64,000 nucleotides of DNA from Halichondria panicea (Eukaryota; Porifera; Demospongiae; Suberitida; Halichondriidae): contig NC_087377.1 in the NCBI RefSeq assembly GCF_963675165.1, forward strand, positions 11,394,632-11,458,631, in the 5' to 3' direction. Shown one piece after another: positions 14,290 through 43,454 of the stretch (its first letter is position 1; each line of letters opens with the position of its first letter). The notes below the pieces were generated by a model. That model had not been told where the DNA came from, did not search any database, and was given only the letters and a program-made list of their open reading frames with translations. A program made the translations under genes and the position numbers.

Positions 14290-14336
<47 letters not shown>

Positions 14337-16873
14337 CACATTGCCGAGCTGGCCATAGCCGGGTAGTCTCTGAGTCTGCAGGAAAATAGAGTGCAATGAA
14401 CAATTGTGTCTAGATGAAATTACCTGTCCAGTGTTCATTGTACTGTAGCCTTCAGAGTTGATTCCTATTTTCTGTAAGGAGGAAAAATCAAAAATCAATG
14501 CTTTGTTCAATAGCTCTAGGTAGTGTTACGTACATTGTCTGAGTTGAGGACCACCTCATCGTAAGTTAGTGCCCCAGCATCCTGTATATGAATAATTATA
14601 TAGAAAGTAAGTGCACTGCACATTTTTTCAAGAGTTCATATGCCATTTTTGCTGAATGTGAGGTATACTAGTAGTGTAAACTGACTGAGCACTTCTCACC
14701 GGACTACGATTGACTCTGCTGTAACCCTCAGAGTCAGGAGGAGGAGGTTGAGCCTGGGGAGAGAGAAAGCGAACAAGAGAGTGGGGGTGGTGAGAGAGAG
14801 AGAGAGAGAGAGAGATTATTATAGGCTCTAAGTCTTACCTTCATGATGTACAGCAAAAAAATGATCAACTCACTTTCTTTGATTCTTTCCTTGGGCCGTC
14901 ATGCCTCAGCTCACTGTAGTCTCCCTGAGCAGTGACACATAGATACACACTACACACAGAGTTTACGGTCTTACCTGAAGTCCTGACATCTCTACCACAT
15001 CTTCTCTGAACTCGTCTGATTTCTGTCTCTTCAGTAAGAACAGGGCAATCACCACGATGCCTATGAGACACACCACCACCAGTATTCCACCAACAACACC
15101 ACCTACTATAGGTCCAATGTCAGTACCTGGGGGTGATGTATGGATAGAGCAGTGTAAAACTAAAAGTTTATATAAGTCACCTTCGGTTGGTGACATACAC
15201 ATTATTTCTTCAGGTGCAGTGCTCCAGACTCCAGCATTAGTGCAAGTGATGGTGTTGGGTCCAGTCAGTGAGAGTCCATTGTCACACTGGTAAGTCAGCA
15301 CTGTTCCCTCCAACACTGTCTCGTTCAACAGCTCATAGTCCACTATAGTACCGTTGAATGGTATGACAGGCACAGTGCAGTTGACTGTGAATGGCAGATA
15401 CATAATACCAATTTAAAAACACATTAATATCTTACCTGGGCTCTCCCTGCACACCAAGCTCCCAGGATTCTCCACCCACTCTCCCCTACCCCCCACATCA
15501 GTGCATGTACTGGTCCTCACATCAAGGGGGAACAGTCCATCTTCACAGCGATAGGTGACCTCTGAACCCAGTGAGAAGGGTGGTGTCCCACCATTGACGT
15601 CCACACTGCCATTGGATGGTGCAGCAGGAGAGCCACAGGTGAGATCTGAGAGGAGGGGACTATAGCATACAATGCAGCCATGACAACTTACCTGAGAGAC
15701 ACATGTAAGTGGTGGGGTCAGGTGACCATCGTCCATCACTCTCACAGGTTGAAAGTACCATCTGTCTATTGCAAGTGAAGCTTAGTGTTGATCCTATTAG
15801 TACAGGCAGTGGTGGACGACCATTGATGGTCACTCGATCCGCAGGTGGTGGATTAGAGGGGCAGGTAACTGCATTGGAGAAACATAATATAAGGTGTAGG
15901 TTACTAATCCATAGAATGCATTCCTGCTATTGGTCACTTCTACTAACCAATAGCAGGAATCACCACCATTACAGCACTGCTATTGCCAGCACAGTTGACA
16001 GTTTTGATGGTCACAGTGTAGTGAGTGTCGTAGGAGATGGTTATCTGTGCCAAGGTGGTCTCCACGGTGACTGGTGACTCGGAGAGAGGTGTTGGGGAGA
16101 TGGTGAGGGCATAGCTGACAGACACACCGCCAGTAGAGGAGGGGGAGTCCCAGTCCAGAGTGATAATGGAAGAGAGAGTTTGATTTTGAATGGAGGAAAT
16201 TATTGGGTTGAGTGGAGAAGTTGGGGCACCTGCAAATTCATGATTAGCTGCATGGAGAATTTAAAAACTCACCAGCAACTGTGACAGTCTGTTGTGACTC
16301 TATTGCAACACCATTATTAATAGTAGCAACACAGGTGACATTGCTACCATCCAGTACAGACACTTCACTGAGGTTGATGAGAGTGGACGTCAGATTTCCA
16401 TCATCATTGCTCACAAAAACAGCCTCAAACATGATCACTCCAGATCCAAATGTGTCCCTTCGACCAACTTGTGAGAATATATTGAATGGATTAATTTGTA
16501 CTTCTGACATCAACATAGACTCTGCTGGAGGATCTACTCTCCATTGCAATGCAACACCACCAGGTACGAAGCATGTGAACAAAACTGTCTCTCCAGGACA
16601 CGCCACACTCGTGTTATACATCAGATCCAAAGTGGCCTCTGTTTTGGAAACAAAATGACAGAAGTATCTAATAGGGCAATAATATGGTACAGTTACATGT
16701 ACTTGAATACTGAATACACATGATACATCTGCTATCAGCCTATCTACCTTAAAACAGTTACATAGCTACGTACCGGTACCCAGGCTAGATCTAGTCTAGG
16801 CACGAACTTTACCTGCAACAACAAAAGATGATAGGAGATAGAACAGGAGACATATCTGGACAAGAAGATCCAT
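11394..16873 (-). CDS. Ig-FN3-CCP3 receptor with tyrosine-motif tail and Death domain
   Basis: Seventeen exons join with consistent phases to 803 codons plus stop: 16813-16873, 16273-16638, 15948-16229, 15692-15868, 15436-15645, 15181-15384, 14975-15126, 14874-14924, 14700-14753, 14534-14581, 14424-14471, 14337-14375, 13888-14059, 13125-13258, 12757-12922, 11748-11904, 11394-11484. Domains: signal peptide 1-20 (LLVQICLLFYLLSSFVVA), Ig about 30-140 (C-P-G-E, FTCF, W, VTCVAT), FN3 143-236, CCPs at 237-295, 296-365 and 366-433, TM about 438-464, seven tyrosine motifs 487-600, Death domain about 635-712, proline-rich end (PPRPPK). Extracellular exons are phase 1 and the first cytoplasmic mini-exons phase 0. 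Likely a type I sensor signalling through SH2, Death-domain and SH3 partners; the ligand is unknown. A paralogue with the same ectodomain lies at 41251-43454. Confidence 0.88.
12757..13258 (-). other. Death domain encoded by two exons
   Basis: Exon 14 (13125-13258) gives HKWRELAETVRLPETMIEQ and exon 15 (12757-12922) gives CLTEVIDQWMRN and TWRELAGHLHNIG. Two W-R-E-L-A helices, the LTEVIDQWM helix and the overall length match a Death-fold adaptor domain. It lies inside the cell, followed only by the proline-rich tail. Confidence 0.8.
13259..13290. repeat. (GT)n microsatellite at a splice acceptor
   Basis: A GT run directly abuts the Death-domain exon, so on the minus strand the acceptor is a CA repeat ending in CACACAG. 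Length changes here would alter the acceptor context. Confidence 0.9.
14292..14332. repeat. (CA)n microsatellite in a receptor intron
   Basis: About twenty CA units end immediately next to the donor (GTGAGTG on the minus strand) of the GYGQL mini-exon. Confidence 0.9.
14793..14814. repeat. (GA)n microsatellite in a receptor intron
   Basis: A GA run in the intron between the DYSEL and GYSRV mini-exons. Confidence 0.85.
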
Positions 16874-19345
16874 CGCTACTGCATGAAAACAAATCCCAGC
16901 TAGCTAGACATAAACTGCACAGCCCCCTCATGCTCATCCGTGACAACAAGGCCACGCCTCCGGGGCAATTTACTGTAAGTCGGAACCTGGTTTGGGATTT
17001 CAGATTACCTTCATTTTTGTCATGCCGTGCCACTAAGCGTCTTTATATCCACGGTTCATTGAATTCGCCCGAAAATCATGGCTCTTTTCTTCGTCTTTTT
17101 TGTAAGTCAGCAATAATAATAATGTAGATGTATAATAAAATTATTATTGAATTAGATCTAGTTATGCTGTGTGAATGGTCAATGACTGTACTTGTGCATA
17201 TCTCCTATCCGTCTATTCTTGAAGTATGTACTCATAGTAAATGCTATCATTCTGTTGCTCTGTTAATTCTCAGACTGCTGTGATTGCCCACATGCTAGCA
17301 AGCAGTAACGGTAAGAATCCAGTGGTGTATAGGTACCGTATAAGCTCTTTTTAAGGCGCCCCTCTAAAGATGCGCCATAAAGCCTCCAAAGTAATTTTTG
17401 AAACTCTAAATGGAGCTCCACCACGTGTGAGTATGGCTGCGCGTTGGTAAATAGAGGTAAAATGAGCAAACAGATCACAGAATTCTTCCTTCCACATCTG
17501 GGCAGCCCTCAAGCCAAAAGTAACCACAGTACCTCTTTAACGTGTACAACCTAGCCTGTTGGAAGACCAAGAAAACTGCTGCAGGTGCCTGGCCCTGTGG
17601 CATCAAGCTAGCTGTTCTGAACTTCATGGAGTAACCAGGTAAGATAAGGGGGTGCTCCAGCACCTATGCTTCCTACGCTCCTGACATGCACAGTCCATTT
17701 GCAAAGCTATTTTTTACCTCCAATTAGAAGGCGCACCTCTAAAGACACGCCATCCAGTCTCGAAACTAATTTTTCAACCTCCTAATAGAGCCACCTTTAC
17801 CAGCGTAATTATTTTAATGTGGCGCCTTAAAAAGAGCTTATACCGTAGATGTTTTTACAAAGAGGGGCGATGATACACGCTCACGTCATACACATAATAA
17901 AAGTCCATATTAATTTCTGCGGCTTTCCCCTAGGGAGATTTTAATCCAGTGCAGGTGTATTGTAGTATATTAAAGTAGTGCTCGTGCAACTACAGTGCAT
18001 CCAGCTTAGAGAGTAGATTACCACAAATTTGTGAGTAGCTGTACTTAAATGTAAATATCTTTCGATTGGAACATTTCTAAGAAATTGTACTGATACTATT
18101 GTGTAGGTGAATGATAGCCTCCTTTGCAGCCTCTCCTTTTTCTGTTCTTTGTCACAATAAGAGAAGGGAGGAACAAAGAAAGAAAGAAAAGGAGACGCGT
18201 GATCCCCATACTGACGTAGACACATTTTAACGAGCGTAGGCGAGAGAAAACCTCAATAACTGTCCTCCCACACAGTACTTGGAACGCATTTATTATCTAG
18301 TGTATAATTAATTTTATGAACAGTAACATGAGTAGAGTAGGCCTTCGTGAGACCTTTAGTCAGTAGAGAAAGTATGAAAGACTAGAGTAGACTATACTGC
18401 TGTAGATCTAGTCAAGTGGGTCTGCTGAACTCAGGAAAAAAACTGAGCTAAATTTAGATGTAGATCTAGATCTTTAGTCTTCAGTCTTTACTAGGTAAGC
18501 CCTCGTCTACGATGTCTCCACACTTGATTCTGGCTTACTATCCATGATGCTTTTATGTTAGAGTTTGCAATGCGTAGGCATGCTGTAGCGTTTTGCTCTG
18601 TCAGGCTCCGCCCAGCTAATGATTGCCCACGCTCATTTTCACTTGTCTATACCACTTGTCCACTGTCACGCGACTTAGCAAGGCAGGCTCTCCTTTTTCT
18701 TTGTCTTTTCCTTCTTTCTTTCTTTGTTCCTCCAATTTGTCCCGTATTTTATCTTATTGAACTATTGTGACAAAGAACAGAAAAAGGAGAGGAGGCTAGG
18801 TGAATGACCAAACATACTCAAAATGTTTCCATGAAACATACGGTGGTGGGTTTGTGGTGATTAATAGAACAACAGCAAATTGTTATAGTGGGTAATCGGT
18901 TAGAGTAATAAAACAGCAATCTTGTACAGCTAAGGTCCTAGTCGTCTTCATCACATAATTGTTCAATGATTTAGATATCCTGACCATCCCTTTATGGGTC
19001 TTACATATGTTCACAGTGTTTATAATTCATGATTTACTTGTTTTTAGGTACACTTTTGGTTAGAGTAATAACTTCTAATAGCTTAGCTTTCAAATTGTAG
19101 TAAGTTTACAGATAAATGGGCTACATTTTGATACCAAGAACATCCTATATGCTTATTCCATTGCGGAGATAACACTGAAAAGCTACAGAATTTCTACTGT
19201 TTGATGACATCAGCAGCTACAAACCAATGACGCTTTAATCAACCGCAAGCTTAATTAAGAGTGGGCGTACAGTTATTGTATGCCCACTTACGTGGTTAAT
19301 TAGAGTGTCATCGATTTGTGGTTAGCAGCTTGTGATGTCATCAAA
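15436..19345. repeat. Left arm of a large inverted duplication
   Basis: This interval matches the reverse complement of about 36603-42717. It includes receptor exons 1-5 and the upstream region, the 0.5-kb TIR element at 17334-17847, a poly-purine region and half of a foldback element. Peptides read in the 17263-17663 stretch are identical to those at 38388-38788. Similarity is very high through exons 1-4, lower in exons 5-6, and absent in the tails. The right arm has an extra 2064-bp insertion (38883-40946), for which this arm carries the empty site at 17169-17177. Confidence 0.9.
17334..17847. mobile_element. TIR element (AAGCTCTTTTTAAGGCGCC ends), left-arm copy
   Basis: A 0.5-kb element with inverted ends containing TAAGCTCTTTTTAAGGCGCC and longer subterminal similarity (GCCTCCAAAGTAATTTTTGA-like blocks on both sides). 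The inverted copy is at 38204-38717. No intact protein. Confidence 0.75.
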
Positions 19346-19514
19346 ACAGTAGAGAATATGTAGTTTTTCAGTGGTATCTCAAAAGCATAGAGGATTTTCT
19401 TGGTATCAAAATGTAGTCCATTTATTTGTAAACTTACCAGAGAACTTTTAAAGCTAAGCTATACAATTTTCACTCTAACCGTAAGTGTACCTAAAAACCG
19501 GTAAATCATGAAAG

Positions 19515-20092
19515 CACCGCAGGTGCTGATGCCTCGGTGGAGATGCCAAAGCTACATAACATAAAGCTACTAAAAGCTTTTATACACTCATTAGCCTCGA
19601 TCCCAGGCTGCACTTCACTCAGGGAAAGGCCGGTGTAGGAGGCTATACACTCATATCTGCACTCATATGATTAACATTTTTGCATGCAAACTCGAAGAGT
19701 GGGATTGTTGTTAAAACGATCGATGCCAAAAGTTCAAGTCTAAAATTAATGGCTGCACCAGCAGAGCCTTACAGCTCTCTTCTCACTCTTGCAGCTACCA
19801 ATAGCTAGCGTTCTAGTGCAGAGCTAACTATTAAGTAGAGTAGCAACACTCGGTAAACAAGTTTGGCTACGTGCTCTTCTGAAAAGGCTGCAATGGCATT
19901 CCAAGTAGGCATAACTCGAGAACAAAGTATTATTTTGCAAATCCACGAATTAAAATCCAAGTAAACATAACTAGAAGCCTATAGAAACTCTTACTTGCAC
20001 TTGATTCATCCTTGAGCAGCTGTAGCAGTCTACACACACACACGCACACTAACACACTACCGTATACCTCACTTGCGCATGCGCACCGAGGC
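19515..20092. mobile_element. Element nested in the foldback arm
   Basis: Compared with the uninterrupted version near 36903-36925, about 580 bp are inserted between ATGAA and ATGAA. Its right end is a GCGCATGCGC-centred sequence (TACCTCACTTGCGCATGCGC) also found at 3408-3440. It contains its own 54-bp micro-element at 19592-19645. Confidence 0.55.
19592..19645. mobile_element. 54-bp micro-element with perfect 9-bp target duplication
   Basis: Starts TAGCCTCGATCCCAGGC and ends GGAGGCTA. It is flanked by TACACTCAT at 19583-19591 and 19646-19654, an exact 9-bp duplication. Too small to encode anything; it must be mobilised in trans. Confidence 0.8.
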
Positions 20093-20566: not shown

Positions 20567-20695
20567 AGCTTGGTCATTCACCTACACAATAGTATCAGCA
20601 CAAATGTTCCAATCGAAAGATATTTACATTTAAGTACAGCTACTCACATATTTTTGTTAATCTAAGCTGGATGCACTGTTCTTATAAAACTCCAG

Positions 20696-26340: not shown

Positions 26341-27099
26341 CTAATAAGTTAAATCTACAGTTGATGTTGCTGACTGAAGCTCAGGAGCACTGTCCATTGA
26401 GGTGAGCAAGAGGTTAGAAGGGGTTACCCTATCAAAATGGCATTCCAAAGTATGAATGAGCTCTATGTGGTAGCCCTTTGGTTGTGAAAGCTGAAGGATC
26501 TTATTAAGTACTAAGTCTGAACATTTTTCTTGTTGATGAAAGTGCTCGTTTGGTCGATAGCAAATCCAATGGTAACGTTGGCTGTCTGGTTGCTTACAGA
26601 AAATGTAGATTTCTGTCTTCAACAAGTTAGCTGCTGCATAGATTTCAACTTGCGTACCCCAGTAGCCAATAGCTTCCATTTTCTTGCAGTGAGCCTCAAG
26701 GGTACCATCAAATACATATCTTTGAAATAAATGGCTGCTTTCTCGTGTGTGTCGGATAAGCATTTGTCGGACTGTATGGTGAAATTTGTCATGGCCCAAG
26801 ATCTCTTTGGAAAGTGCTCTAAACAGACAATTTCCATCAGCTTGAATGTAGTCAATTCTCCGTTGTTTTCCCAGCATATTCTGAAATAGTTTATATCCTT
26901 CTGTGTTCGGTGCAGGATTAATAATGCATCTTGTTTCGTGTATATGATCTGCTGTCTTTTCACTTCCCAACAGAGACAGTGAAAGCTGGCGTCTGTAACT
27001 CCGTACCATTACCTCATGTGTTGAGTAAAGCCCACCTGAACTTGGAACATATTGCGGAGGGACAGGAATATCTGCAAAATCTGCATTGGGTAGCTTCAC
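26341..27099 (-). CDS. OTU-family cysteine protease domain of the MULE
   Basis: A 252-codon open stretch with the OTU signature: DGNCLFRALS (catalytic Cys), WGTQVEIYAAANLL and the C-terminal His region ECHFD. OTU enzymes cleave ubiquitin chains, and OTU domains are carried by many eukaryotic transposons, where the substrate is unknown. The protein likely continues from the CXXC exon by splicing (short extension near 27217-27014), so the ATG at 27099 need not be used. All three active-site blocks are present, making it the best-preserved part of the element. Confidence 0.75.
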   Translation of the reverse strand: MKLPNADFADIPVPPQYVPSSGGLYSTHEVMVRSYRRQLSLSLLGSEKTADHIHETRCIINPAPNTEGYKLFQNMLGKQRRIDYIQADGNCLFRALSKEILGHDKFHHTVRQMLIRHTRESSHLFQRYVFDGTLEAHCKKMEAIGYWGTQVEIYAAANLLKTEIYIFCKQPDSQRYHWICYRPNEHFHQQEKCSDLVLNKILQLSQPKGYHIELIHTLECHFDRVTPSNLLLTSMDSAPELQSATSTVDLTY

Positions 27100-27291
27100 A
27101 AATCCCGGGCAAGACCTGAAATAACCCTATTGAAGGTATATAAGAGTGCGACAACAGAATCAGTGCTATACGTACATCACAAAATTCCTTTTCTGATACT
27201 TTCCCCTTTTCTTGCACTTCAAGTTGTGGTGTTGAAGCTGCACCTGTATAAATAATTATTGTCTCTATGCGATTACAAATGTGGTATATGA

Positions 27292-28080
27292 TTATATGGT
27301 ACCCCCCCTTACCACTAAAATGGTGTATAGTCTTGAAATAACATTTGCCACATCAGCTTCTGCTTTTGCAGTACGAATGCACTTGCGTTTGATGCAGCAC
27401 TGTTTCTTAATTCCTGCATGGTCCACCATTCTTAGGCTTGTCCAAACAAAACTTACATTGATTGCAGTCTGTACTAATGCATCCTGGACACTGTTCACAC
27501 CGTCTTTGCCTCTTCCGACCTGCCATATAAAGTGTAAAGTTGTGTGGTGTAAAGTAGTCAGGTGTACTTTTTGAATCACTATGAATGGTTTGTGTTTTAC
27601 TGGATAGTTGTTCTGGCACTTGCTTTGTCTTTACCCTCTGCATGAACTCATTTCGTGACTCTGACACTTCTTGTGCAATCTTAAAGTATATGACACACAT
27701 ATATAATTATGGCCTTGTAAAATAATTATAATAGTCCTCACCTTTTTGTACCTTAGTGCTTTGTTCCCTACACGGCTTTTAAAATGCCAGTCCTTTTTTT
27801 TGTGGTGGGTCTTTGAATGCACGGATAGAGAGGAATATTTAAGGGATTTTTGGTGCAGTTTTTTGGTGCAGTTTCTTGTACTTTTGTGATATCTTCTTTG
27901 CTGAATGGGTAACGAGGGCAGGTCTTAAAAGTAAACCTCCTTCATGTGGCAACATTCCTCTGAACTTAGCCTCCACATCTTTAAGCATTTGATCAAGGTG
28001 CCGTAGCTTTGTGCTGTCAGTGCAGCTGTATGACAGAGACTCTACCACTTTTAGTGTAGTCAGAACTTGTTGTCGTGTTT
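27292..28080 (-). pseudogene. MULE continuation with CXXC zinc finger
   Basis: The exon around 28048-27840 (ESLSYSCTDSTKLRHLDQML) has no recognised fold. The 27700-27292 stretch carries a CXXC-type zinc finger of the kind that binds unmethylated CpG: RKRQRRCEQCPGC, CNQCKFCLDKPKNGG and, one base out of frame, KKQCCIKRKC. The frameshift lies near 27405-27415. A CXXC domain in a MULE suggests that target choice or regulation responds to CpG methylation; this is inference. Confidence 0.75.
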
Positions 28081-28152
28081 TTTGAGTAGAAACAGAATGC
28101 TATATATAATATAAGCATGAAGTATATAATTATACATATACATGATTTGTAG

Positions 28153-28829
28153 TTAAATCAAAATACTCACCTCATGTTGGGGAATGTCATCTGTAATCGT
28201 TTTTTCTTCTTCACTCAGGTAAGCAGATGCAATGCTAACTGGAGCGTCACTATTGGATAGAGGAGCTGAGTCAGCAGTAATATATTCATTCTTAAGGTAG
28301 TCCTTTGGTAAGCTCATCCATCCCCAGTTTGGAAATTTTTCAAACACTGCAAAAAAGTGTTTGCAAGGTATGTGCCAGCGTGTCCAATCTTTGCAAGAGC
28401 ACTGTGGCATGTTTTCGTCGTTTGTGAACTCAAGTGTATGTTGCTTTCCCGAGGTAGTCTTAACTGTGAATTGACCTTTCGTACCATTTTGTTCAATTGA
28501 CGCTTTAGGGAATTTTTCAGCTTTTCTGATTCGGGTCAAACAGTGCAGAATTACTGACCTAGGCCGGCCTCTCAAATACTCAGGAACAAACTCGTTGTAT
28601 GATCTGTACGAATCTGACATAGCAAAGTTGTCTTTCTGATACTTCTGTAGCATGCATGCTGGGCAAAAACTCTTCTACCAAAATTGTTACTAGATGTGAT
28701 AGCGTTGTATTTTTTCCCTTTGGTAAATAGTTGTATTTCAATGTTTTGTTCATTAATTGCTTCAACCCCATTGTTGGTGTTTACAGCGGCATGGTAACAA
28801 TCATCCCTATAAACTCTGGCCCATAGCTG
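28153..28829 (-). pseudogene. MULE continuation with SWIM zinc finger
   Basis: An exon starting near 28829 (acceptor CATTACAG) reads WARVYRDD and NTNNGVEA, then shifts frame at least twice through LKYNYLPKGK and EEFLPSMHA before settling in the frame that gives YNEFVPEYLRGRPRSV. It ends with a SWIM zinc finger, CSCKDWTRWHIPCKHFFAV (C-x-C...C-x-H), typical of MULE transposases and thought to bind DNA or protein. The frame breaks make it a pseudogene. Confidence 0.75.
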
Positions 28830-28946
28830 TAATGGGATCAAAAGTACAGTCACATCATAATAATCATAATACAACCGTTTTTATTTTCTCGTACCACTCA
28901 GAATAATTATATGCAATAATTATTATGTGACAGACGTACAATATTA

Positions 28947-29121
28947 CAGTGGAACCCCTCTATAACGGACACCTTTGGGGAACAATGTTTTGGCCTTTAT
29001 ACAGAGGTGGCCTTTGTTGAGAGGTTGTTTTACACAAACTGTTCATTTGGGACCTGGGTGCCTGGCCGTTATATAGCAACTGGCCTTTATTCAGAGGTGG
29101 TTGTTAAAGGAGGTTCCACTG
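28947..29121. mobile_element. Pogo/Tigger-like MITE, copy 2
   Basis: 175 bp, ends CAGTGGAACC and GGTTCCACTG, TA on both sides. Close to the copy at 764-943. It lies in the intron just downstream of the MULE catalytic exon. Confidence 0.8.
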
Positions 29122-29135
29122 TAGACGATGCTTAC

Positions 29136-30834
29136 CTTTGGGATACTTAACCATTTTGTATTGAGCCAATCCCTCATGGTGTTTCCAGATGTTGGATGGT
29201 CATCTATCGCTTTTTGATAGTAGAATTCTGAGGGTAACCCTGACACGTTTTCAGTTGGTGGAGCATTAGCACATTCCCTTAACATAGATAGAAGACATTC
29301 CTTTTCATCATTACTGAGACTATGTTTGTGATTATTTGTCCACCTCTCCCATGCTTGTTCGCGATGAAAATCACATAAATATATTTGTACACCTGGAAAG
29401 GTCTGTTTAAGAGCCAGAAGTTCAGCCTCCAAATAATCGGTCATGAAAAATTTGGGGTTCCACTTAGGATTCCATTTATGTAACAGTTGTAAGGCCTCAG
29501 ATACATGTTGAGCCGTTTCAGACTGAGTAATAAACTCACCAACCACACTGTACCCTACATTCGTTTTGACACAAATAAAAAATAAGGCCAAGTCGTAACG
29601 TGTGGTTTTATACGTTGCATCTTTATATTGTTCCCATAACGTTCCAGTAACTTTTTGCCATTGTGTTTGGTGTACATACAGGAAACTTTGAGAGCATTGC
29701 TTGTGAGATCCTAAAACCTCACACCAGTCATCATCACCTCCAGAGTTTCCTTGAAACCCTTTGGTTAATGTGTCTTCCTTTTTGTTTTCCTCTTTAGGTA
29801 CTTCTTCTGATGATTGATGGTGCGTTTCAGAATCTTCAGACGAGATGTAAGGGCGAAAGAAAAAGGTACTTTCCCTGTCATGTTCTTCCCATTCTTTAAT
29901 TTTGAGTCTCAAGTTTTCTTGATCAAATTTTGAGAGCTCTAGTGCTCTCTTTGCTCGATACACATGATTTTTGATATCAACATTGTTAGGATAAAATGCT
30001 CTGTCATGGGCTTGTGGTTTGAATCCAAGCTCTCTACTAATTTGGTTGTCTGTGTAGTACTTCAAGAGCTTTTTTACCTCGTGTACATCAGTAATATTAG
30101 CTGACACTAGCTTTGAAATTTTTGATAGTAGCAAGGGGTGTACTTTCTGTGCAAATGCAATATCTGCTCCAATCAGGTGGCTGCTGTGTGCTTCATTCGT
30201 AGGAAGCGATACGAAGTATTTTGTTTGTTTTTTCGGGGTACCTGTAGCCAATTCATTCCTTAATTTTCCCAATTTACCTTCACGTAGTAGCCGTAACTTC
30301 CATGGACTGAGCCCTTCTTTTTCCTGCTTTGTGATCTGATAGTCGGGATACAGTGTATATTTAATAGTTTGAATGTGTGCACAACACCCAATTTTTCTTG
30401 TGCCTTGTAGTCGTAGCCGAGCATGTTTGCACTCTTTCTTTCGAAAGTAGTGTTGACCATATTGGCAATCTAAAGTTGTTGTTTGTCAACAGAAAAAGGC
30501 GTATCTTTAAAGTTGACTGCATTTTTCTTCTCCCAGAAAATCTTCGCCGCCTGACTGCTACAAGCAGGGACCTCCTGCAGAGTGAAAGACTCTTACATTA
30601 ATTATACTACTCTGTTTATTGTCTCAAGTTTGTTTATTGTATTATTACCTTATTTTCCTTTTCTTGTGTTTTTTGAGCAGTGCTAGTGGACCGTCGAATA
30701 CCAAATGTTGATACTGTGTATGCTTGGTGCTGCTGTCTCAACACGTCCAAGACTGTGTCATCAACGTAACCTTCATAGTATAGGCCAACTCTCCTCAGGT
30801 TGTGTTCTCCAACCCACTGTGGTGCTGCATCCAT
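29136..30834 (-). pseudogene. MULE transposase, N-terminal and catalytic part
   Basis: The first exon (30834 to about 30649) starts with ATG and ends at a GTAATA donor. A second coding stretch around 30578-30300 holds a zinc-binding-like block (DCQYGQHYFRKKECKHARL), interrupted by a frame change near 30470. The long frame from about 30300 to 29136 contains the DDE domain: DATYKTTRYDLALFFI (first Asp), FFMTDYLEAE (second Asp), and the MULE signature CDFHREQAWERW. It ends at a donor (GGTAAGC) at 29136. Catalysis would be cut-and-paste DNA transposition. Frame breaks before and after this exon indicate that the copy is dead. It continues into the SWIM, CXXC and OTU portions. Confidence 0.75.
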
Positions 30835-31044
30835 AGCTAGCTAGCATGCAGTAATGATAGATCTACACGTACACACGTGTACCATGTGCATTTATTAAAT
30901 CAAGTTTCCCTCGCAAATACCGCGGTAAATGACATTAGGATCACGTGCTCCTCATCAACTTAGGTGAACTTAGTCTATCCCACTTTCACTACTCGCGCTG
31001 CTGGAACCCCCCCTTTCATTTTTCCTGGATCCGCCACTGCTATA

Positions 31045-32324
31045 GTGTACAATTTCCAATGATGAAAGGGTATTATCGCTCACCTTGACAATACATCCCA
31101 GGCCCAGCCACTTGTGGACACCCCTGAGCATAGTATATACAAGATATCGATGGCCAGAGTCTGAGGATAGACTCTACCAAGTGTATTTGGCAATCAATGG
31201 TCTAATCAAGCGCTTGTATTAAATTGTGTAGTCAATCAAAGGTAGCCAACTGATAGCAGAAACTTGAGAACCTAGGTCTGTTCTTTCACAAGAGTGATGC
31301 TCCTTCTTCCTTCGCACAAGACAGCTCCTCACACTCTAGCTAAGCCTATATCTATGACAAACTAAACTTGCAAAGAATAGACCTCCTATGACACGGAGTT
31401 CTTTGTGATTTAACGGTGATTTTACGGAGTAAGTATGCTTACATACACTATTAGTGTTTCTATTCGCTCCACCTTGCTCAGGTATTCGCTCTTTTCGAGC
31501 GAATATCTGAGCAACCACAGCACATGCCCAGATACACGCCCAGATACAATCAATAACAGGCCGAGGAAGCGACCTAGCGTTCAATTGGAGACGAATCGAG
31601 GCTACATTTGCGATAGACCAGTGGGTGCAGTCTTGTCTAGTGATGACTTTTGTCAGTAATTTTCCATGACACTGATGTAGAACCATAGCAATCTATCTAG
31701 ACGTATCATGTATGTCTATGCAATTCTTATGGATCATGTAATCAATCATGTAATCATCAGTAAAGAAGGTGAGAAGTAATAAATTCAGTTGATAAATGAT
31801 ACACATGCAGGCTACAATATACATGTCTACGTTGTTCTACCAGAGATTATCTCTGTTTCTACTATAGATTTTAGTTCTATACATTAGTAATATGTACATG
31901 CAGCATCTGAGATCTTGAGTGAAAATTTAGTTTAGTGTACGAGTGTCTGATGATTTTGATAAAATTAATTGGCTTCCTTCCAGTTTTGTAGCATCTTGCA
32001 GTATATACATGTTCCTGTGGCGAACCATCCTTTGCATGCAGATAAAACAAGTGGTGCTCTTTGGACATTGCACATACAATGTGCTTAAACCTTCCCAACC
32101 ACACAAAAGTCTGCTCTCCAGCTTGGGTGTTTGCAGCTGGAAATTTTTCTTTAAGAATTTTGGGGGGATACTTTTCTTTGCACTCTGGGTTGACATGATT
32201 GGGCAGGTGAAAAGAATCGATGATCTTGTAACTACGCTTCGTTCACCGGAGGTGGTAAGGGGAAAGTATTTTTGCCACATTTAATCGTGAACATTGCATG
32301 CACATGCATATTGTCATACAAGAT
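31045..32324. other. Non-coding or unrecognised
   Basis: Holds the inverted copy (31537-31608) of the repeat at 24586-24647, ending CGAATCGAGGCTA. The minus-strand frame at 31927-32280 (CFICMQRM) has no domain I recognise. Confidence 0.35.
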
Positions 32325-33030
32325 ACAGTAGTCTAGACTCTCGCTATTCCGGCTCCCTGAAGTACGGCCACCTCGATATACCGGCCATTTGGCTTGGCAC
32401 GGAATGCTAGCTATATGTTTACTGCACAAAACTCACCCTGAAGTACGGCCACTCGCTATTCCGGTTACCGGCCAGTGCTGGCTGTCCCAAACAGGGTTTT
32501 CAATGTAATTTTATACGTGTATTACGGCCGGATATGACGTTTTGGGTGTGGTTTAGCAAATAAAATTGCTTAAATAGGGAACATCATTATCCTACATTAT
32601 CCTCGAGACAAGAACCGCAAAAAGTAGTCATTAGATTCGAGGTAAGGTCGTTTTTAAGCCGCGGCTATTTCCTGAGCTGCAGCCACCTCGCTATTCCGGC
32701 CAAGCTGCATGGTCCCAAGGGTGACCAGATTAAGTAGACTCTCGTTAATCCGGTCACCCTTGGGACCATGCAGCTTGGCCGGAATAGCGAGGTGGCTGCA
32801 GCTCAGGAAATAGCCGCGACTTAAAAACGACCTTACCTCGAATCTAATGACTTTACATTGAAAACCCTGTTTGGGACAGCCAGCACTGGCCGGTAAACGG
32901 AATAGCGAGTGGCCGTACTTCAGGGTGAGTTTTGTGCAGTAAACATATAGCTAGCATTCCGTGCCAAGCCAAATGGCCGGTATATCGAGGTGGCCGTACT
33001 TCAGGGAGCCGGAATAGCGAGAGTCTACTG
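32325..33030. mobile_element. Two AGTAGACTC elements in palindromic (head-to-head) array
   Basis: 32325-32734 is a copy of the element at 22654-23027. 32735-33030 is a second copy in opposite orientation, lacking about 110 internal bases. They meet at GTAGACTCTCG, so the whole can form a long hairpin. Confidence 0.75.
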
Positions 33031-33077
33031 TACTATCAAAAGCTGAGTAAGGCAATACTAACATTTTTGGATGTTTT

Positions 33078-34169
33078 TTAGATGCCAGCAAAGCTTTTGC
33101 TAGAGTTAACCATACTACATGTACCCTGTTTAAGATGCTTATTGATAGGAACATTCCTCCCACAGTACTGCGATTTCTCTTCTCATGGTACAGGGACCAA
33201 GAACTAGTTGTTCGCTGGAATGCAGATATTTCAGCATCTTTTAATGTTTCGAATGGTGTACGTCAGGGTACATGACGTGGTGTTCTCTCTCCAATCCTTT
33301 TCACGGTTTATATTGACGAGCTCCTGCAAAGACTATCTCGACTTGGAATTGGTTACCAACTTGGTGGGCACTCTGTCTGTGCACTTGGTTATGCTGACGA
33401 TATAGCCCTTCTGGCCCCCTCACCATCTGCCATGCGTATCTTATTGAAAGAATGTGAAGCATTTGCCTCTGAATTCGATATAACTTTTAATGCCAGCAAA
33501 ACTCAGCTTATTTGTTTCAGCAATCGTTCGATGACACTACCTAACGGAGTTTTCAGGTTCAATGGAGTTGCTCTTCAGTTTACAGACATAGTGACCCACC
33601 TTGGCCACACCCTTCATCGCAAGTTGGATGACGAAGTTGATATTGCACAAGTAACTTCCGTTATGTGCAGGAAAGCTAACTACCTGCTCCATACATTTAG
33701 TGGGTGTGATATGAGAGTGAAAACTAAGCTAATTGTGACCCACTGCCTTTCACTATATGGTTGTGTTTTGTGGAGACTTGACAGTAAGAAAATTCGTGCT
33801 CTTGAAACCGCTTTTAACAATATTTTGAGGAAAATTTGGAGATTGCCTCGTCAATGTCACACAAGAATTCTCCACTGTGTTGCTGGAGTTCAGAGTTTGT
33901 TTAATAGAATACCAGATATTTTTTCGAACTTCATGTCACGTGCTTTAGCATCTAAATCCACCCTCATTAGATCAGTTTTCTCATGGGCGTCTAGCCATGC
34001 ATTCACAGCAGTCGGGGCTAACAACCTGATCAAAAGGAATTTTATTAAAGTTTATAGCAGTGACGACATGGTTTGTGCGGACTTTGTTCGGGATGTCAGG
34101 CTAGGCCGCATTTCATTCAACTCGCGTGAAGATACATCAATGATAATTAACTCTATCTGCTGCAATTGA
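33078..34169 (+). pseudogene. LINE (non-LTR) reverse transcriptase fragment
   Basis: A single frame encodes the 3' half of a reverse transcriptase: LDASKAFARVNH, GVRQG, GVLSPILFTVYIDELL, the catalytic GYADDIALLAPS, then the thumb and C-terminal region to TGA after SICCN. There is one in-frame TGA near 33274 between GVRQG and GVLSP, in an arginine-type position (CGA to TGA is plausible). The endonuclease and N-terminal RT are absent, cut at the palindromic MITE pair. 5' truncation is usual for LINE insertions. No poly-A tail was noted. Confidence 0.8.
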
Positions 34170-34214
34170 CTTTAAGTTGGACTAACTATCTTGCACTATA
34201 GTTCTATACTATTA

Positions 34215-35170
34215 CTATATACATGTAATATAATATGTACACCTATTCCTGGTGTGTTCAATGATAATTATTATTATTATTATTATTATATCAGTTGGGT
34301 TGGTGACAATTTGCAGTAGGTTATCGTGTTTCCTTAAGTAGTTTTTTACAAAACTAAACATTTCTTCTGCCGGATTGAGATCAGGACTATACGGTGGAAG
34401 AAATAGTAAAAGTATGCCCATTTGTCTGAATAGATCTGTGATATCTTGAGTGTGCACAGACAAATTGTCCATTATAACAATTGAACAAGGATTATATCCG
34501 TTGAATGGTAGCTGTTCGGTATGAGGGATCGTCTTGCATATATATAGTCAAAGAAACTTCCGCATCAACATTATAGACTTAGTAACTTCAACAGCTACTA
34601 CACCATCAGTGCTCATGCCAGCAATATAGCATTAACTCTTTGCCCACGACTCAACAGGCGTTTATTCTGTGCAGGTGCCAATGCATATCCATACTTTCTG
34701 ATATGATCTCTGGCATCTGAACCCGTTTCATCAATAAATACAAACTGGTCTGGATTAAATAGTAAACACTGAGCCATAAATGCTCCACGGAGTGTATAGC
34801 ACCTTTGGAGAGCTACTTGTTGAATCTTCTTTTGAGTGATTCCATATCTTCTAAGTAGCCGACAAATAGTTGGGGGAGTCACCACAACCCCCATTGCTTC
34901 CTCCAATTCGTGGCACACCTCAGAGAGATACATGGATGGATCCTCGAGCACCATCCCAACTGTATATATTTCTTCATGTACACTTAGCTTTCTCAGCTCT
35001 CTCCTTTGTTCGCTCAGTACAGGGTCTACTTTTCCTGTTTGCTGAAACCTCGTAAATATACTGTATGCTGTGCTTGCTGCAGTATTTAAGTTAGTAGCTA
35101 TCTTGTCATAGGTAAGATTCATACCAATTCTTTGATAGACTATACTCTCCAGCGTAGATATGTGCCATAG
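34215..35170 (-). pseudogene. IS630/Tc1-mariner-type DDE transposase
   Basis: The N-terminal helix-turn-helix region (YDKIATNLNTAASTAYSIFTRF) is followed by the DDE_3-like core: FVFIDETGSDARDH (first Asp), IVIMDNLSVH (second Asp), PPYSPDLNPAEEMFSFVKNY (Glu). The frame is broken between 34613 and 34475, and the C-terminus runs into an ATT microsatellite (34263-34291). I did not find terminal repeats. Confidence 0.75.
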
Positions 35171-36602
35171 GCTTTCTTTCTTCCCGGTTCAGCTGACATT
35201 TTGATCTGTAGTATTACATTTGAATTTCCCGCAGTTTTCCTCTTGTAAGCACAACACAGAAGTCCGTACGTCAACGCAAATTCGAACGCAACTGAAATCC
35301 ACTGTAGCTGTTTAGGCCCTCAAAAGATAGATTATGTTGTTATGATTATGTTTCCTTGATGGGAAGTAAAAATGTCCAAAACTTTCTTAGCTATGCTAGC
35401 TTCTTTAGCTCTGACAGCCACCCTAGTAAACTAATTCATGTAAGTTGCTTCTTAAAACACAATATCTAAGTCAACACACAAATCTTTCAGACAGCTGTTC
35501 AGGTAGTAACACAGCTCAATGTACAACATTATCAGTGGATGTAATCACTCTGTAATGGATGTAATGCCAGTAATCACTCCCTTTTTACAATGATTACTGC
35601 AACCAAACAGTGATAATTATAAATATTCATCCATTACATGCACCCGTTGATTTGCATTACTCATTAGACAATGACATTGAATCATTAGACTTCTTACTTG
35701 GCTATGGGTCAAGTGTTAGGTAAAGATCATTAATGCCAAAAAAATTGTGGTGGCGGCACAGTGTGACATTACATACCAAGTAAGGCAGAAATTAAAGCTG
35801 TACGCTCACACGCATGCACTTGATGATCCGCCAGCTCCAACAACTCTTCATCCATTGGTCAATATCACTTCAGTCAAGCAGCTGAGACAAAACAGACGGT
35901 AAAGACCCACTACACAATAAACATCGAGTGAGACAAGGGTACTAGTCTGATAAAGGGTCATGCAATCTATTTGATGGACATAAATATTAAATGATCAAAA
36001 TAATGATGACAGTAGAAAAAGACCTAGCTTGCAGGTATAGTCTACTGCTTTTCAAGGTCACCGTCACTCCAGCTAGCCTCGATTCCAGGCAAGATATTTA
36101 CTTTTGTATAATCAATTTCTAGTAGAAGTTGATTTGGTTCACTTGAACTTAGCAATGGCAAAAACATATGCATGAATAAATCGAGTGACCAATCTTAGAA
36201 TTAGGCTGCTAATAACTATTACCACAAGCGTAAAACCACACATGATAATTGAGTAATTCGTTAAAAAGGAGTACAAGCTACTCCCCACTAATGAAAATGC
36301 CTATAAGCGTACAGCCAGAGGTTAGCTAATTATTAAAGAAAACATCATTAAGGCTATGCTGGCCAATTTTCCTTTAATAGAACGGAAGGTCTAAGAGAAT
36401 AGGCTTGCATTTGGCATGCATAGATCAGATCCAATGACCACTCTACTACTAAAGGCCATCCCAGTGTATATAAACCCCTCTCCTTTTGCAAATAATGATC
36501 GGAATGTGCTGAGGATCCTTGATGGTTTTCGACAGCCTCAAAGTACTCGTGCAACTTCGGGACGACACCTTCTATATCAGAACATGATAAGGTTGGTCTA
36601 CC
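35171..36602. other. No gene recognised
   Basis: 35530-35600 contains short direct repeats of ATGTAAT..CACTC. 36073-36090 has a solitary TAGCCTCGATTCCAGG end. Frames near 36354-36628 have no recognisable domain. Confidence 0.35.
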
Positions 36603-38203
36603 GTTTTGATGACATCACAAGCTGCTAACCACAAATCGATGACACTCTAATAACCACGTAAGTGGGCGTACAATAACTGTACGCCCACTCTTAATTAAGC
36701 TTGCGGTTGATTAAAGCGTCATTGGTTTGTAGCTGCTGATGTCATCAAACAGTAGAAATTATGTAGCTTTTCAGTGTTATCTCCGCAATGGAATAGGATG
36801 TTCTTGGTATCAAAATGTAGCCCATTTATCTGTAAACTTAGTACAATTTGAAAGCTAAGCTATTAGAAGTTATTACTCTAACCAAAAGTGTACCTAAAAA
36901 CAAGTAAATCATGAATTATAAACACTGTGAACATAATTATGTAAGACCCATAAAGGGATGGTCAGGATATCTAAATCATTGAACAATTATGTGATGAAGA
37001 CGACTAGGACCTTAGCTGTAAAAGATTGCTGTTTTATTACTCTAACCGATTATATGTACCCACTATAACAATTTGCTGTTGTTCTATTAATCACTACAAA
37101 CCCACCACCGTATGTTTCATGGAAGTGAGTATGTTTGGTCATTCACCTAGCCTCCTTCGCAGCCTCTCCTTTTTCTGTTCTTTGTCACAATAGTTCAATA
37201 AGATAAAATACGGGACAAATTGGAGGAACAAAAAAAGAAAGAAGGAAGAGACAAAGAAAAAGGAGAGCCTGCCTTGCTAAGTCGTGTGACAGTAGACAAG
37301 TGGTATAGACAAGTGAAAATGAGCGTGGGCAATCATTAGCTGGGCGGAGCCTGACAGAGCAAAACGCTACAGCATGCCTACGCATTGCAAACTCTAACAT
37401 AAAAGCTGTTAGCATCATAGATAGTAAGCCAGAATCAAGTGTGGAGACATCGTAGACGAGGGCTTACCTAGTAAAGACTGAAGACTAAAGATCTAGATCT
37501 ACATCTAAATTTAGCTCAGTTTTTTTCCTGAGTTCAGCAGACCCACTTGACTAGTATAGATATAATTATTAGATCTACAGCAGTATATAGTCTACTCTAG
37601 TCTTTCATACTTTCTCTACTGACTAAAGGTCTCACGAAGGCCTACTCTACTCATGCTACTGTTCATAAAATTAATTATACACTCCAGTACAGGTTGTGTT
37701 CCTAATAAATGCGTTCCAAGTACTGTGTGGGAGGACAGTTATTGAGGTTTTCTCTCGCCTACGCTCGTTAAAATGTGTCTACGTCAGTATGGGGATCACG
37801 CGTCTCCTTTTCTTTGTCGCTTCCTTCTTTCTTTCTTTCTTTCTTTCTTTGTTCCTCCAATTTTCTCTTCTCTTATTGTGACAAAGAACAGAAAAAGGAG
37901 AGGCTGCAAAGGAGGCTATCATTCACCTACACAATAGTATCAGTACAATTTCTTAGAAATGTTCCAATCGAAAGATATTTACATTTAAGTACAGCTACTC
38001 ACAAATTTGTGGTAATCTACTCTCTAAGCTGGATGCACTGTAGTTGCACAAGCACTACTGTAATACACTACAATACACCTGCACAGGATTAAAATCTCCA
38101 TCAATCTCAAACCTTTCCTAGGGGAGAGCCGCAGAAATTAATATGGACTTTTATTATGTGTATGATGTGAGCGTGTATCAGCGCCCCTCTTTGTAAAAAC
38201 ATC

Positions 38204-38717
38204 TACGGTATAAGCTCTTTTTAAGGCGCCACATTAAAATAATTACGCTGGTAAAGGTGGCTCTATTAGGAGGTTGAAAAATTAGTTTCGAGACTGGATG
38301 GCGTGTCTTTAGAGGTGCGCCTTCTAATTGGAGGTAAAAAATAGCTTTGCAAATGGACTGTGCATGTCAGGAGCGTAGGAAGCATAGGTGCTGGAGCACC
38401 CCCTTATCTTACCTGGTTACTCCATGAAGTTCAGAACAGCTAGCTTGATGCCACAGGGCCAGGCACCTGCAGCAGTTTTCTTGGTCTTCCAACAGGCTAG
38501 GTTGTACACGTTAAAGAGGTACTGTGGTTACTTTTGGCTTGAGGGCTGCCCAGATGTGGAAGGAAGAATTCTGTGATCTGTTTGCTCATTTTACCTCTAT
38601 TTACCAACGCGCAGCCATACTCACACGTGGTGGAGCTCCATTTAGAGTTTCAAAAATTACTTTGGAGGCTTTATGGCGCATCTTTAGAGGGGCGCCTTAA
38701 AAAGAGCTTATACGGTA
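38204..38717. mobile_element. TIR element, right-arm copy
   Basis: Inverted copy of 17334-17847, present before the duplication. Confidence 0.75.
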
Positions 38718-39021
38718 CCTATACACCACTGGATTCTTACCGTTACTGCTTGCTAGCATGTGGGCAATCACAGCAGTCTGAGAATTAACAGAGCAACAGA
38801 ATGATAGCATTTACTATGAGTACATACTTCAAGAATAGACGGATAGGAGATATGCACAAGTACAGTCATTGACCATTCACACTAGCTGGGCGGAGCCCGG
38901 CACCCGTTCCCAACGGGTGGCCGGGTGACACGCTTATATAGGATTTGTACTGCTGCACTGAGGAGTGCAGCCCAATCAGATTGCAGTATTGCAAGTGGTT
39001 GGTTAATACCCACTTAGCTAG

Positions 39022-40440
39022 GTGGGTGTGCAGCTGGGCGGAGCTGCCTTGAGCAAAATACACAAGCTGTCACAGAAGCTGCTAACGAGCTTGGAAGTAG
39101 TCACTTCTTTTCTGAGAGGCAGAGATGTCTTTGCTGTATTGCCTACTGGATTTGGAAAGAGCCTTTGCTATGCTTGTTTGCCTGCAGCATTTGACAAAAT
39201 ATTGGAGAAGGAGAAAGGTCATTCTTGTAGTAGTAGTCACTCCTCTGCTGGCCATCATTCATGATCAGGTATGTAAGGCTAGATAGAACATACATATAAT
39301 TATACGTACATGTGCATATGAGCTGTTTACACATAACTAGATCATTCTAAGCTGGATGCTTTTATTCTATATATAGGTAGCCATCTATTGTTCTAAAGGC
39401 ATCTCTAGCACATATGTCTCGGGCGAGATGTCTGATGCAGCTACAATGGATGCGATCTTCCACGGAAAGTATCAGCTAGTATTCTTTACACCTGAAATGA
39501 TCATCAGCAAAAAGCATTGGAGAAGACTTCTGGGGGGAGATGTGTATGCTAATAGACTCAAGGCTTTGATAATCGATGAAGCTCATTGTGTGAAGAAATG
39601 GTATGTATTTGACTCATCGTTTTTTATTAACATGTGTACCAATAATATTATTGCAGGGGTGAGACTTTCAGGCAAATGCTGTTGAGAATTAGAGAAGTGC
39701 GCAGCCTCATTCCAACATCAGTTCATGTGATGGCACTAACAGCAACAGCTACCCGAAGTGACATTTCATTCATTTCTCGTATTGTTGGCCTAAGAAACCC
39801 ATTTGTCATTACGAGAGTCCCAGTAATCCCAAATTTGATTTATGCTGTTGGATTATTCAAAAGTATACCAGAGACATTCCAAAACTTGGCCCAGAAATTG
39901 GTAATCGAGAGAAACAAGTTTCCCAAAACAATCATATATGGACGTTCTTTTGGAGTGTGTGGTGACATGTACCTCTTCTTTAAGGATTACCTTGGAGCTG
40001 CATTCACAAATCCTGATGATGCACCTGATCTTTCTGAATTTCGCCTCGTGGACATGTTTACAAGTGTCACTGATCCAGCCCATAAATCTGAAATCATTCG
40101 TTTATTTAAGGGTGATGGCAATCTTCGCATTGTTGTAGCTACTATGGCATTTGGTATGGGTGTTGATTGTCCCAACATTCGATAAATCATTCATGTTGGC
40201 CTGTCAGACGATATCAGTAGCTATGTACAAGAGACTGGTAGAGCAGGTCGAGATGGTAAACCATCACGTGTAACCCTTTTGAAGGCAAGAATTTACCATC
40301 AAGTTGATAATGAGATTAAAGAACATGCTTCAAACTTCAACACTACAGATTGTAGAAGGGGTGGTCTTTTCCGAAATATTGACAATTACAAACATGTTGA
40401 TCTCGGTTTCAATTGCTTGTGCTGTGATATTTGTTCTAAG
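39022..40440 (+). pseudogene. RecQ-like superfamily 2 helicase
   Basis: Three exons can be joined: about 39022 to 39269, about 39378 to 39599 (donor GTATGTA) and 39656 to 40440 (acceptor ATTGCAG). Motifs in order: Walker A LPTGFGKSLCYACLP, FFTPEMI, DEAH box IIDEAHCVKKW, ALTATATRS, IVVATMAFGMGVD, ETGRAGRDGK, and a RecQ zinc-binding remnant (CRRGGLF...CCDIC). RecQ enzymes unwind DNA 3' to 5' using ATP. An in-frame TAA at 40183-40185, between motifs V and VI, breaks this copy, and the frame around the first intron is uncertain. It starts about 140 bp from the TIR, facing inward. Confidence 0.8.
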
Positions 40441-40496
40441 TCATGTTTATGTGGACAGTGTGACCTAAGACTTAGTTACTTCTTTCAGCTAATTAC

Positions 40497-40735
40497 ACAT
40501 TTTATTTTCATTATTACCTGTGCTTCAAGAAAGCTGCTATATCTACCGAAACATTTCCTGCACATTTTGGGCAATCTGTTTTTATCACTGCCATTTATAA
40601 TACTGTTAATGTGGACATCAGCACACATCTGTTCTTCCTCATTCTCCAGTAGCATTGTCCACAGGTCCAACACTTCCTTTACCAGGCCTTGATAGCTCAT
40701 CCCCACATCCAAAACATTGTAACACTTGGGCCATT
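40497..40735 (-). pseudogene. Zinc-finger N-terminal fragment of a transposon protein
   Basis: Reading left from the right TIR: QCFGCGDELSRPG, then after a frameshift VLDLWTMLLENEEEQ and LPKMCRKCFGRYSSFLEAQ, ending at a GTAATA donor (near 40517). The paired C-x2-C motifs and spacing resemble the zinc-finger N-terminus of the DUF6589-type gene at 44194 (CRLC...YICRKC). The rest of such a gene is missing, so the element appears internally deleted. Confidence 0.55.
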
Positions 40736-41250
40736 CTTGCTCAGTACTTTATTTTAATTTAGTAGCAAAGTCATGTTGTTCAGTGCCAGCCAGTGTGGTA
40801 CAGTGCGGTGCATATTGCGTTTAACACCCACTTAAAATAATTATATTCATGATGCTCCAAGCAATATTACATAACACACAAGTACAAATCTTATATAAGC
40901 GTGTCCCCCGACCTCCCGTCAGGGACGGTCGGGCTCCGCCCAACTACATTCACACAGCATAACTAGATCTAATTCAATAATAATTTTATTATACATCTAC
41001 ATTATTATTATTGCTGACTTACAAAAAAGACGAAGAAAAGAGCCATGATTTTCGGGCGAATTCAATGAACCGTGGATATAAAGACGCTTAGTGGCACGGC
41101 ATGACAAAAATGAAGGTAATCTGAAATCCCAAACCAGGTTCCGACTTACAGTAAATTGCCCCGGAGGCGTGGCCTTGTTGTCACGGATGAGCATGAGGGG
41201 GCTGTGCAGTTTATGTCTAGCTAGCTGGGATTTGTTTTCATGCAGTAGCG

Positions 41251-43454
41251 ATGGATCTTCTTGTCCAGATATGTCTCCTGTTCTATCTCCTATCATCTTT
41301 TGTTGTTGCAGGTAAAGTTCGTGCCTAGACTAGATCTAGCCTGGGTACCGGTACGTACGTAGCTATGTAACTGTTTTAAGGTAGATAGGCTGATAGCAGA
41401 TGTATCATGTGTATTCAGTATTCAAGTACATGTAACTGTACCATATTATTGCCCTATTAGATACTTCTGTCATTTTGTTTCCAAAACAGAGGCCACTTTG
41501 GATCTGATGTATAACACGAGTGTGGCGTGTCCTGGAGAGACAGTTTTGTTCACATGCTTCGTACCTGGTGGTGTTGCATTGCAATGGAGAGTAGATCCTC
41601 CAGCAGAGTCTATGTTGATGTCAGAAGTACAAATTAATCCATTCAATATATTCTCACAAGTTGGTCGAAGGGACACATTTGGATCTGGAGTGATCATGTT
41701 TGAGGCTGTTTTTGTGAGCAATGATGATGGAAATCTGACGTCCACTCTCATCAACCTCAGTGAAGTGTCTGTACTGGATGGTAGCAATGTCACCTATACT
41801 GCTACTATTGATAATGGTGTTGTAATAGAGTCACAACAGACTGTCACAGTTGCTGGTGAGTTTTTAAATTCTCCATGCAGCTAATCATGAATTTGCAGGT
41901 GCCCCAACTTCTCCACTCAACCCAATAATTTCCTCCATTCAAAATCAAACTCTCTCTTCCATTATCACTCTGGACTGGGACTCCCCCTCCTCTACTGGTG
42001 GTGTGTCTGTCAGCTATGCCCTCACCATCTCCCCAACACCTCTCTCCGAGTCACCAGTCACCGTGGAGACCACCTCGGCACAGATAACCATCTCCTACGA
42101 CACTCACTACACTGTGACCATCAAAACTGTCAACTGTGCTGGCAATAGCAGTGCTGTAATGGTGGTGATTCCTGCTATTGGTTAGTAGAAGTGACCAATA
42201 GAAGGAATGTAGTGTCCTTTTTTCTATGGATTAGTAACCTACACCTTATATTATGTTTCTCCAATGCAGTTACCTGCCCCTCTAATCCACCACCTGCGGA
42301 TCGAGTGACCATCAATGGTGCTCCACCACTGCCTGTACTAATAGGATCAACACTAAGCTTCACTTGCAATAGACAGATGGTACCATCAACCTGTGAGAGT
42401 GATGGACGATGGTCACCTGACCCCACCACTTACATGTGTCTCTCAGGTAAGTTGTAATTAATATCATGGCTGCATTGTACGCTATAGCTATAGTCCCCTC
42501 CTCTCAGTTGCCACCTGTGGTTCTCCTGCTGCACCATCTAGAGGTAGTGTGGACATCAGTGGTGGGACACCACCCTTCTCACTGGGTTCAGAGGTCACCT
42601 TCCACTGTGATGAGGGACTGTTCCCCCCTAATGTGAGGACCAGCACATGCGCTGATGTGGGGGGTAGGGGAGAGTGGGTGGAGAATCCCGGGAGCTTGGT
42701 GTGCAGGGAGAGGCCAGGTGAAATGTAGTTGTTTAGAAGCTTGATTTTTCTGTCAAAAAATTTGTTTAACTGCATGTGTACAATTGTACCGCCTTTGTTC
42801 CACATTTCTTAGTATTCTGCAATGGCAGGTCATTAATGGGTGCTCATGTTGAGCTGATGAGATACAAAGATGTATACTCACAGTTATTTTCTGACCGTCC
42901 CTATATATATATATAGTCAACTGCACTGTGCCTGCTGAGCCGTGCAACGGTGCTATAATGGACTATGAGAGGTTGAACGAGACAGTGTCGGAGGGAACAG
43001 TGCTGACTTACCGGTGTGACAATGGATTCTCACTGACTGGACCCAACACCATCACTTGCACTAATGCTAGAGTCTGGAGTACTGAGCCTGAGGCAATCGT
43101 GTGTGTACTTATGACTGAAGGTGATGAGCTTTGTAATAATATATAATTATTGTATACTATCTACTATCTCATTTCACATGTACAGTTTCTACTATCGCTC
43201 CCTTGTTCTCCACTTCTGCAACTGTCGCTATCAGTGTGGTCATCACTTTCATTGTCACTCTAGTCATTGGATTCCTCACTGGACTCCTAGTGATGCATCT
43301 TTTCTCTCGTAAGAAGGCAGTATACTTCCCGGCAACTGAAGGACAAGCTAACGCAGCGTCCACTGCACCAGTTGGTCCTGTTTATGAGGAGGTGTCACCC
43401 AAAGAGGACATTGAACTCAACACAAACCAGGCGTACGGACCATTAGGACTGTGA
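41251..43454 (+). CDS. Ig-FN3-CCP3 receptor with short two-tyrosine tail
   Basis: Seven exons with consistent phases give 522 residues: 41251-41311, 41490-41855, 41899-42180, 42270-42446, 42508-42717, 42917-43120, 43186-43454. Exon lengths 1-6 are identical to those of the Death-domain receptor (61, 366, 282, 177, 210, 204 bp). Signal peptide 1-20, Ig 21-142, FN3 143-236, CCPs 237-433, TM about 447-469 (VVITFIVTLVIGFLTGLLVM), tail with VYEEV and, 13 residues on, YGPL. The second Ig cysteine is replaced by tyrosine (NVTYTATI), so the canonical Ig disulfide is lost. It lacks the Death domain and proline-rich tail. This is the long receptor's ectodomain on a different signalling tail. Confidence 0.9.

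Follow-up and report, generated by a model that had tools for sequence, protein, structure and literature searches.

Paired receptors with homogenised ligand-binding regions are best known from vertebrate immune cells. In primates, the genes for Siglec-11 and Siglec-16 lie head to head about 9 kb apart, and repeated gene conversion keeps their first exons and upstream DNA alike, while one partner bears ITIMs and the other has a different tail (PMC5701461). This is a single pair of V-set/C2 lectins that signals through an ITAM adaptor. The CEACAM paired receptors of Xenopus and mammals form a cluster of more than 80 genes, in which the ITIM genes and their counterparts have opposite transcriptional orientation (PMC5112662). 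Conversion there is confined to the N exon, the ligand-binding exon, where silent changes are nearly absent, and the counterpart carries an ITAM. The authors consider the inverted orientation necessary for intrachromosomal exchange. In invertebrates, the Botryllus fester family and fester co-receptors are encoded as neighboring pairs in a cluster of Ig plus sushi receptors, with tails that contain ITIM, hemITAM or YxxI/L/V motifs (PMC12065747). Fester has three transmembrane segments and FcoR has Ig, sushi and two C2 Ig domains. The partners share little amino-acid identity and no Death domain is described there. The Alr genes of the Hydractinia allorecognition complex are a large linked family of Ig-superfamily receptors with tyrosine motifs, with 41 members (PMC11999971). 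Antiparallel, tail-swapped pairs or Death tails are not mentioned in the text consulted, and no CCP is noted.

Here, we describe two divergently transcribed receptor genes within a window of 64,000 nucleotides of Halichondria panicea (NC_087377.1, here C1, positions 11394632-11458631, of a 131-Mb assembly with 39 contigs). Gene A (minus strand) and gene B (plus strand) lie on inverted arms 24 kb apart and share six exons of 61, 366, 282, 177, 210 and 204 nt. They differ from the Siglec pair in that many such pairs occur, the heads have Ig-like-FN3-CCP order, the ITIM partner has a Death domain and the other partner lacks an adaptor-type membrane residue. Compared to the CEACAMs, the homogenised region is larger and spans upstream DNA and about four exons, and gene B has no canonical ITAM. 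In contrast to the fester partners, the heads of such pairs are 91-99% identical, and both genes have a single transmembrane segment.

Self-comparison of the window revealed one large inverted repeat whose arms are 88-100% identical in blocks (Table 1). Both hand-built gene models translate open and all internal splice sites are GT/AG. The initial annotation had described the two genes as divergent paired receptors with swapped tails, and its coordinates and domain order are right. However, the left edge it gave for the locus is only the end of exon 5 of gene A, and gene A runs on well outside that span, to at least 12757. We could further show that the similarity includes about 2.2 kb upstream of the start codons, about 1.0 kb of it letter-identical, and that the right arm was later split by a 2.06-kb transposon. 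The DNA between the two genes gave only transposon-type Pfam matches.

Table 1. Features of the gene A/gene B locus (positions within the 64,000-nt window)
Feature	Position	Strand	Remarks
Gene A exon 1, signal peptide	16813-16873	-	ATG at 16873; letter-identical to gene B exon 1
Gene A exon 2, Ig-like domain	16273-16638	-	keeps the invariant cysteine C102 of the exon; weak Ig_2/ig matches only
Gene A exon 3, FN3 domain	15948-16229	-	fn3 below Pfam cut-off
Gene A exon 4, first CCP/sushi-like domain	15692-15868	-	Pfam counts two Sushi stretches in the whole protein
Gene A exon 5, second CCP	15436-15645	-	divergence from B begins
Gene A exon 6, third CCP	15181-15384	-	
Gene A exon 7, transmembrane segment	14975-15126	-	unrelated to B
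Gene A exons 8-13, tyrosine tail	13888-14924	-	YSEL, YSRV, LTYDEV (ITIM), YSTM, YGQL, VVYAAL (ITIM), VTYATV (ITIM)
Gene A exons 14-15, Death domain	12757-13258	-	nearest solved structure FADD
Probable last exon of gene A, proline-rich, stop (tentative)	11744-11904	-	PPPPLPSR; candidate ORF after an AG; region 87.8% conserved in unit 2
Gene B exon 1, signal peptide	41251-41311	+	ATG at 41251
Gene B exon 2, Ig-like	41490-41855	+	cysteine invariant in the other sequences aligned is Tyr here (41798)
Gene B exon 3, FN3	41899-42180	+	
Gene B exons 4-6, three CCP domains	42270-43120	+	42270-42446, 42508-42717, 42917-43120
Gene B exon 7, transmembrane segment and short tail, stop	43186-43454	+	YEEV and YGPL
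Left arm of the inverted repeat	15197-19353	-	16333-17869 letter-identical to the right arm
Right arm of the inverted repeat	36597-43104	+	interrupted by the transposon
Transposon with a RecQ-like helicase, in gene B's upstream arm	38884-40940	+	terminal inverted repeats; 9-bp target duplication CATTCACAC; Helicase_C E 4.5e-4

The nucleotide identity of exons 1 to 6 is 100, 98.6, 99.3, 97.7, 90.0 and 84.8%. Across exons 1-3 there is one silent difference in about 175 silent sites (a divergence of ~0.006), and silent divergence then rises to 0.023, 0.126 and 0.258 in exons 4-6. Introns 1-4 are 97-100% identical between the two genes, while introns 5-6 do not align. Protein-level constraint cannot explain this pattern, and sequence transfer does. 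The longest identical run is 1,537 nt, from about 1.0 kb upstream of the start codon through most of the Ig exon. None of 5,000 shuffles of aligned columns reached this length (largest 696), also when exons 5-6 were left out. The tails, in contrast, do not align (46% for exon 7).

Sushi domains are clear in these proteins. The Ig assignment rests on weaker evidence, since the exon has a C-W-C pattern that is invariant in 14 aligned relatives but broken by Tyr in gene B, and Ig_2 matched only with E 0.028, under the cut-off. A profile search of this exon against the PDB gave only weak matches, mostly to antibody light chains, and an AlphaFold model built from two window sequences reached a pLDDT of 40, all-beta only and without a usable fold. 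The Death domain is better supported, as it matched the Pfam profile in all seven family members scanned (best E 4.7e-7), although the window copy scores 22.2 bits against a cut-off of 22.6. In the tail of gene A three motifs fit the ITIM pattern, accompanied by four further YxxPhi motifs. The last two ITIMs are kept in 14 of 14 A genes that have this exon. The two tyrosine motifs of gene B are separated by 13 residues. With this spacing and a Val in the first motif they do not form a canonical ITAM, and the membrane segment has no charged residue for an adaptor.

Interestingly, the window is one unit of a 3.7-Mb receptor complex. The B tail exon was found at least 167 times on C1 between 11.25 and 14.93 Mb, with one scored copy elsewhere (contig C7), although only the best 150 of about 300 candidates were scored per search. 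The A tyrosine exon occurs 22 times, all on C1 between 11.4 and 13.8 Mb. These counts are approximate, because some segments of the cluster, such as those at 11.705 and 12.4226 Mb, are 99.91% identical over 4.5 kb and may be very recent duplications or unmerged haplotypes. A genes are antiparallel to the nearest B gene in 21 of 22 cases and the head-side neighbor is a divergent B gene in 20 of 22 (P = 0.0006 and 0.0002 after shuffling of strands among A genes). In the locally inverted blocks at about 12.60-12.84 and 13.79-13.82 Mb both classes are flipped together.

The heads do not follow the tails. On a tree of Ig plus FN3 DNA from 32 genes the tail class changes 7 times, at least 5 of them on well-supported branches, and a tree that holds all A genes in one head clade was rejected (AU p 5e-70). 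Near-identical heads of neighboring A and B genes occur in four groups. These are the window pair (11.41/11.44 Mb) together with a second copy of the whole pair ~100 kb away, termed unit 2 (11.51/11.532 Mb); A at 12.19 Mb with B at 12.20 Mb (95% over 663 nt); A at 13.00 Mb with B at 13.05, 13.12 and 13.15 Mb (93-97%); and A at 13.604 and 13.63 Mb with B at 13.609 Mb (91%). The A gene at 13.604 Mb has no matching Ig exon in its usual place and sits on a long branch, and hence its identity figures use FN3 onward. A second head clade, with A genes at 12.64 and 13.76 Mb, is not closest to its neighbor. Thus, homogenisation is frequent but not universal.

The recurrence of this layout also bears on the possibility that two alleles or repeat copies were assembled as an inverted repeat. 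The cluster is hard to assemble, and some false duplication elsewhere is possible. However, the different tails and flanks, the transposon in one arm only, and the same head-to-head layout in unit 2 and in other neighborhoods make such an artefact very unlikely, although no long reads were available.

The initial annotation had suggested a recent duplication or gene conversion limited to the 5' halves, and recent transfer limited to these halves is well supported. One might argue that a single inverted duplication copied a promoter plus head exons and fused them to an existing tail, without repeated conversion. A continuous inverted repeat that includes 2.2 kb of upstream DNA, found in unit 1 (the window pair) but not in unit 2, indeed looks like one copying event. 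However, identity is not uniform, as the letter-identical core lies between less similar ends that fade from 97 to 77%. The two units are copies of one head-to-head pair (A tails 89%, spacer 92.9%, B part 91%), and in unit 2 the heads are again alike within the unit, at 97.3%. In exon 4 the partners resemble each other (97.7 and 99.4%) more than same-class copies of the two units do (95.5 and 94.9%). Four-way site patterns are unit-type in the upstream region and exon 4, mixed cross-type in exon 5 and class-type in exons 6-7. A single event does not give the patterns of exons 4 and 5. Exon 6 is still homologous at 85%, so the genes were already full-length relatives. Repeated exchange between the arms explains these data more simply, although an inverted duplication may have begun it, and we regard a single duplication alone as unlikely. 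The number of informative sites is small (6 unit-type in exon 4, 4 cross-type in exon 5) and hence the exact history is not fixed.

With moderate confidence we therefore favor a model in which genes A and B are partners in a large cluster of Ig-like-FN3-CCP membrane receptors. Repeated gene conversion between inverted copies keeps their outer halves alike (promoter region, signal peptide, Ig, FN3, CCP1 and partly CCP2), while the transmembrane segments and tails stay distinct. The term paired receptors fits by anatomy. In the absence of expression, ligand or signalling data, and by analogy with Siglec-11/-16 and the CEACAMs, we infer that both receptors bind the same ligand, are co-expressed and send different signals. 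Co-expression is a reasonable prediction for the window pair, since upstream DNA is shared there, while unit 2 does not share it to the same extent. From its motifs, gene A might pass an inhibitory or death-type signal through SH2 phosphatases and Death adaptors. The tail of B is conserved, and B might act as counterpart, be it a weak activator, an adhesion receptor or a decoy. The work of these receptors is probably self/non-self or microbe recognition.

An alternative is that there is no functional pairing and that homogenisation is a by-product of inverted repeats lying close together in a tandem expansion of B genes with a few A genes. B genes outnumber A genes about 8 to 1, so most B genes have no A partner. 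Some A copies are damaged, with a stop in FN3 at 13.63 Mb and no tyrosine/Death exons found at 13.08 Mb. The head clade without neighbor match would also agree with this view. However, the consistent antiparallel layout, the intact tandem ITIMs and the shared upstream DNA of the window pair suggest maintenance, and we consider this alternative doubtful. More speculative, and in our view improbable, is the idea that the pool of more than 150 B-type receptors acts as a donor reservoir of heads. Opposite-strand ITIM-Death receptors would be re-headed from it by conversion between inverted copies. This would give an invertebrate recognition complex, perhaps for allorecognition, in which the same recognition surface is repeatedly matched to an ITIM/Death output and to a short-tail output. 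Somatic exchange is not excluded.

In the open literature searched we found no description of an ITIM-plus-Death receptor cluster. The anatomy of the vertebrate paired receptors, repeated many times in an invertebrate cluster with such a tail, would point to convergent logic for self/non-self or microbe recognition. The clear split between heads and tails makes gene conversion, polymorphism and ligand sharing directly testable, and the locus gives a concrete chromosomal candidate for allorecognition or immune receptor genes.

Transposon genes lie around and between the receptors, and include OTU and MULE with SWIM, reverse transcriptases, a Helitron-like N-terminus, and an integrase-like ORF after a reverse transcriptase. 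In the right arm only we found a 2.06-kb transposon with a RecQ-like helicase, inverted ends (GGCGGAGCCCG...) and a 9-bp target duplication. A 5.5-kb element-like stretch is bounded by 63-bp inverted ends and holds a second RecQ-like helicase ORF. A palindrome with 182-nt arms, 98% complementary, has a second inner 113-nt palindrome. Tandem arrays consist of a 32-bp unit x 11 (98% match) and an about 99-bp unit x 7.7.

Two 4.5-kb segments of contig C1, 0.72 Mb apart, are 99.91% identical (4 mismatches, no gaps), and may represent a very recent segmental duplication or an unmerged haplotype. One A-type gene carries a stop codon in its FN3 exon and is a probable pseudogene. Another has an A-type head and membrane exon, but no tyrosine/Death exons were found in the stretch examined, indicating a truncated or decayed A gene. 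The second Ig cysteine, invariant in the 14 relatives aligned, is Tyr in gene B, so its Ig disulphide may be lost.

Coordinates of the additional features
Feature	Position	Strand
Tyr in gene B exon 2	41798	
Transposon, right arm	38884-40940	
Element-like stretch	44087-49647	
Its inverted ends	44087-44149 and 49585-49647	
Its helicase ORF	48059-48913	minus
Transposon genes	26341-35188, 51851-56847	
Tandem arrays	7575-7929 and 10149-10933	
Palindrome	32327-33034	
Near-identical segments	C1:11705000-11709500, C1:12422550-12427100	
A-type gene with stop codon	C1:13631800-13637800	
Truncated or decayed A gene	C1:13074600-13080400
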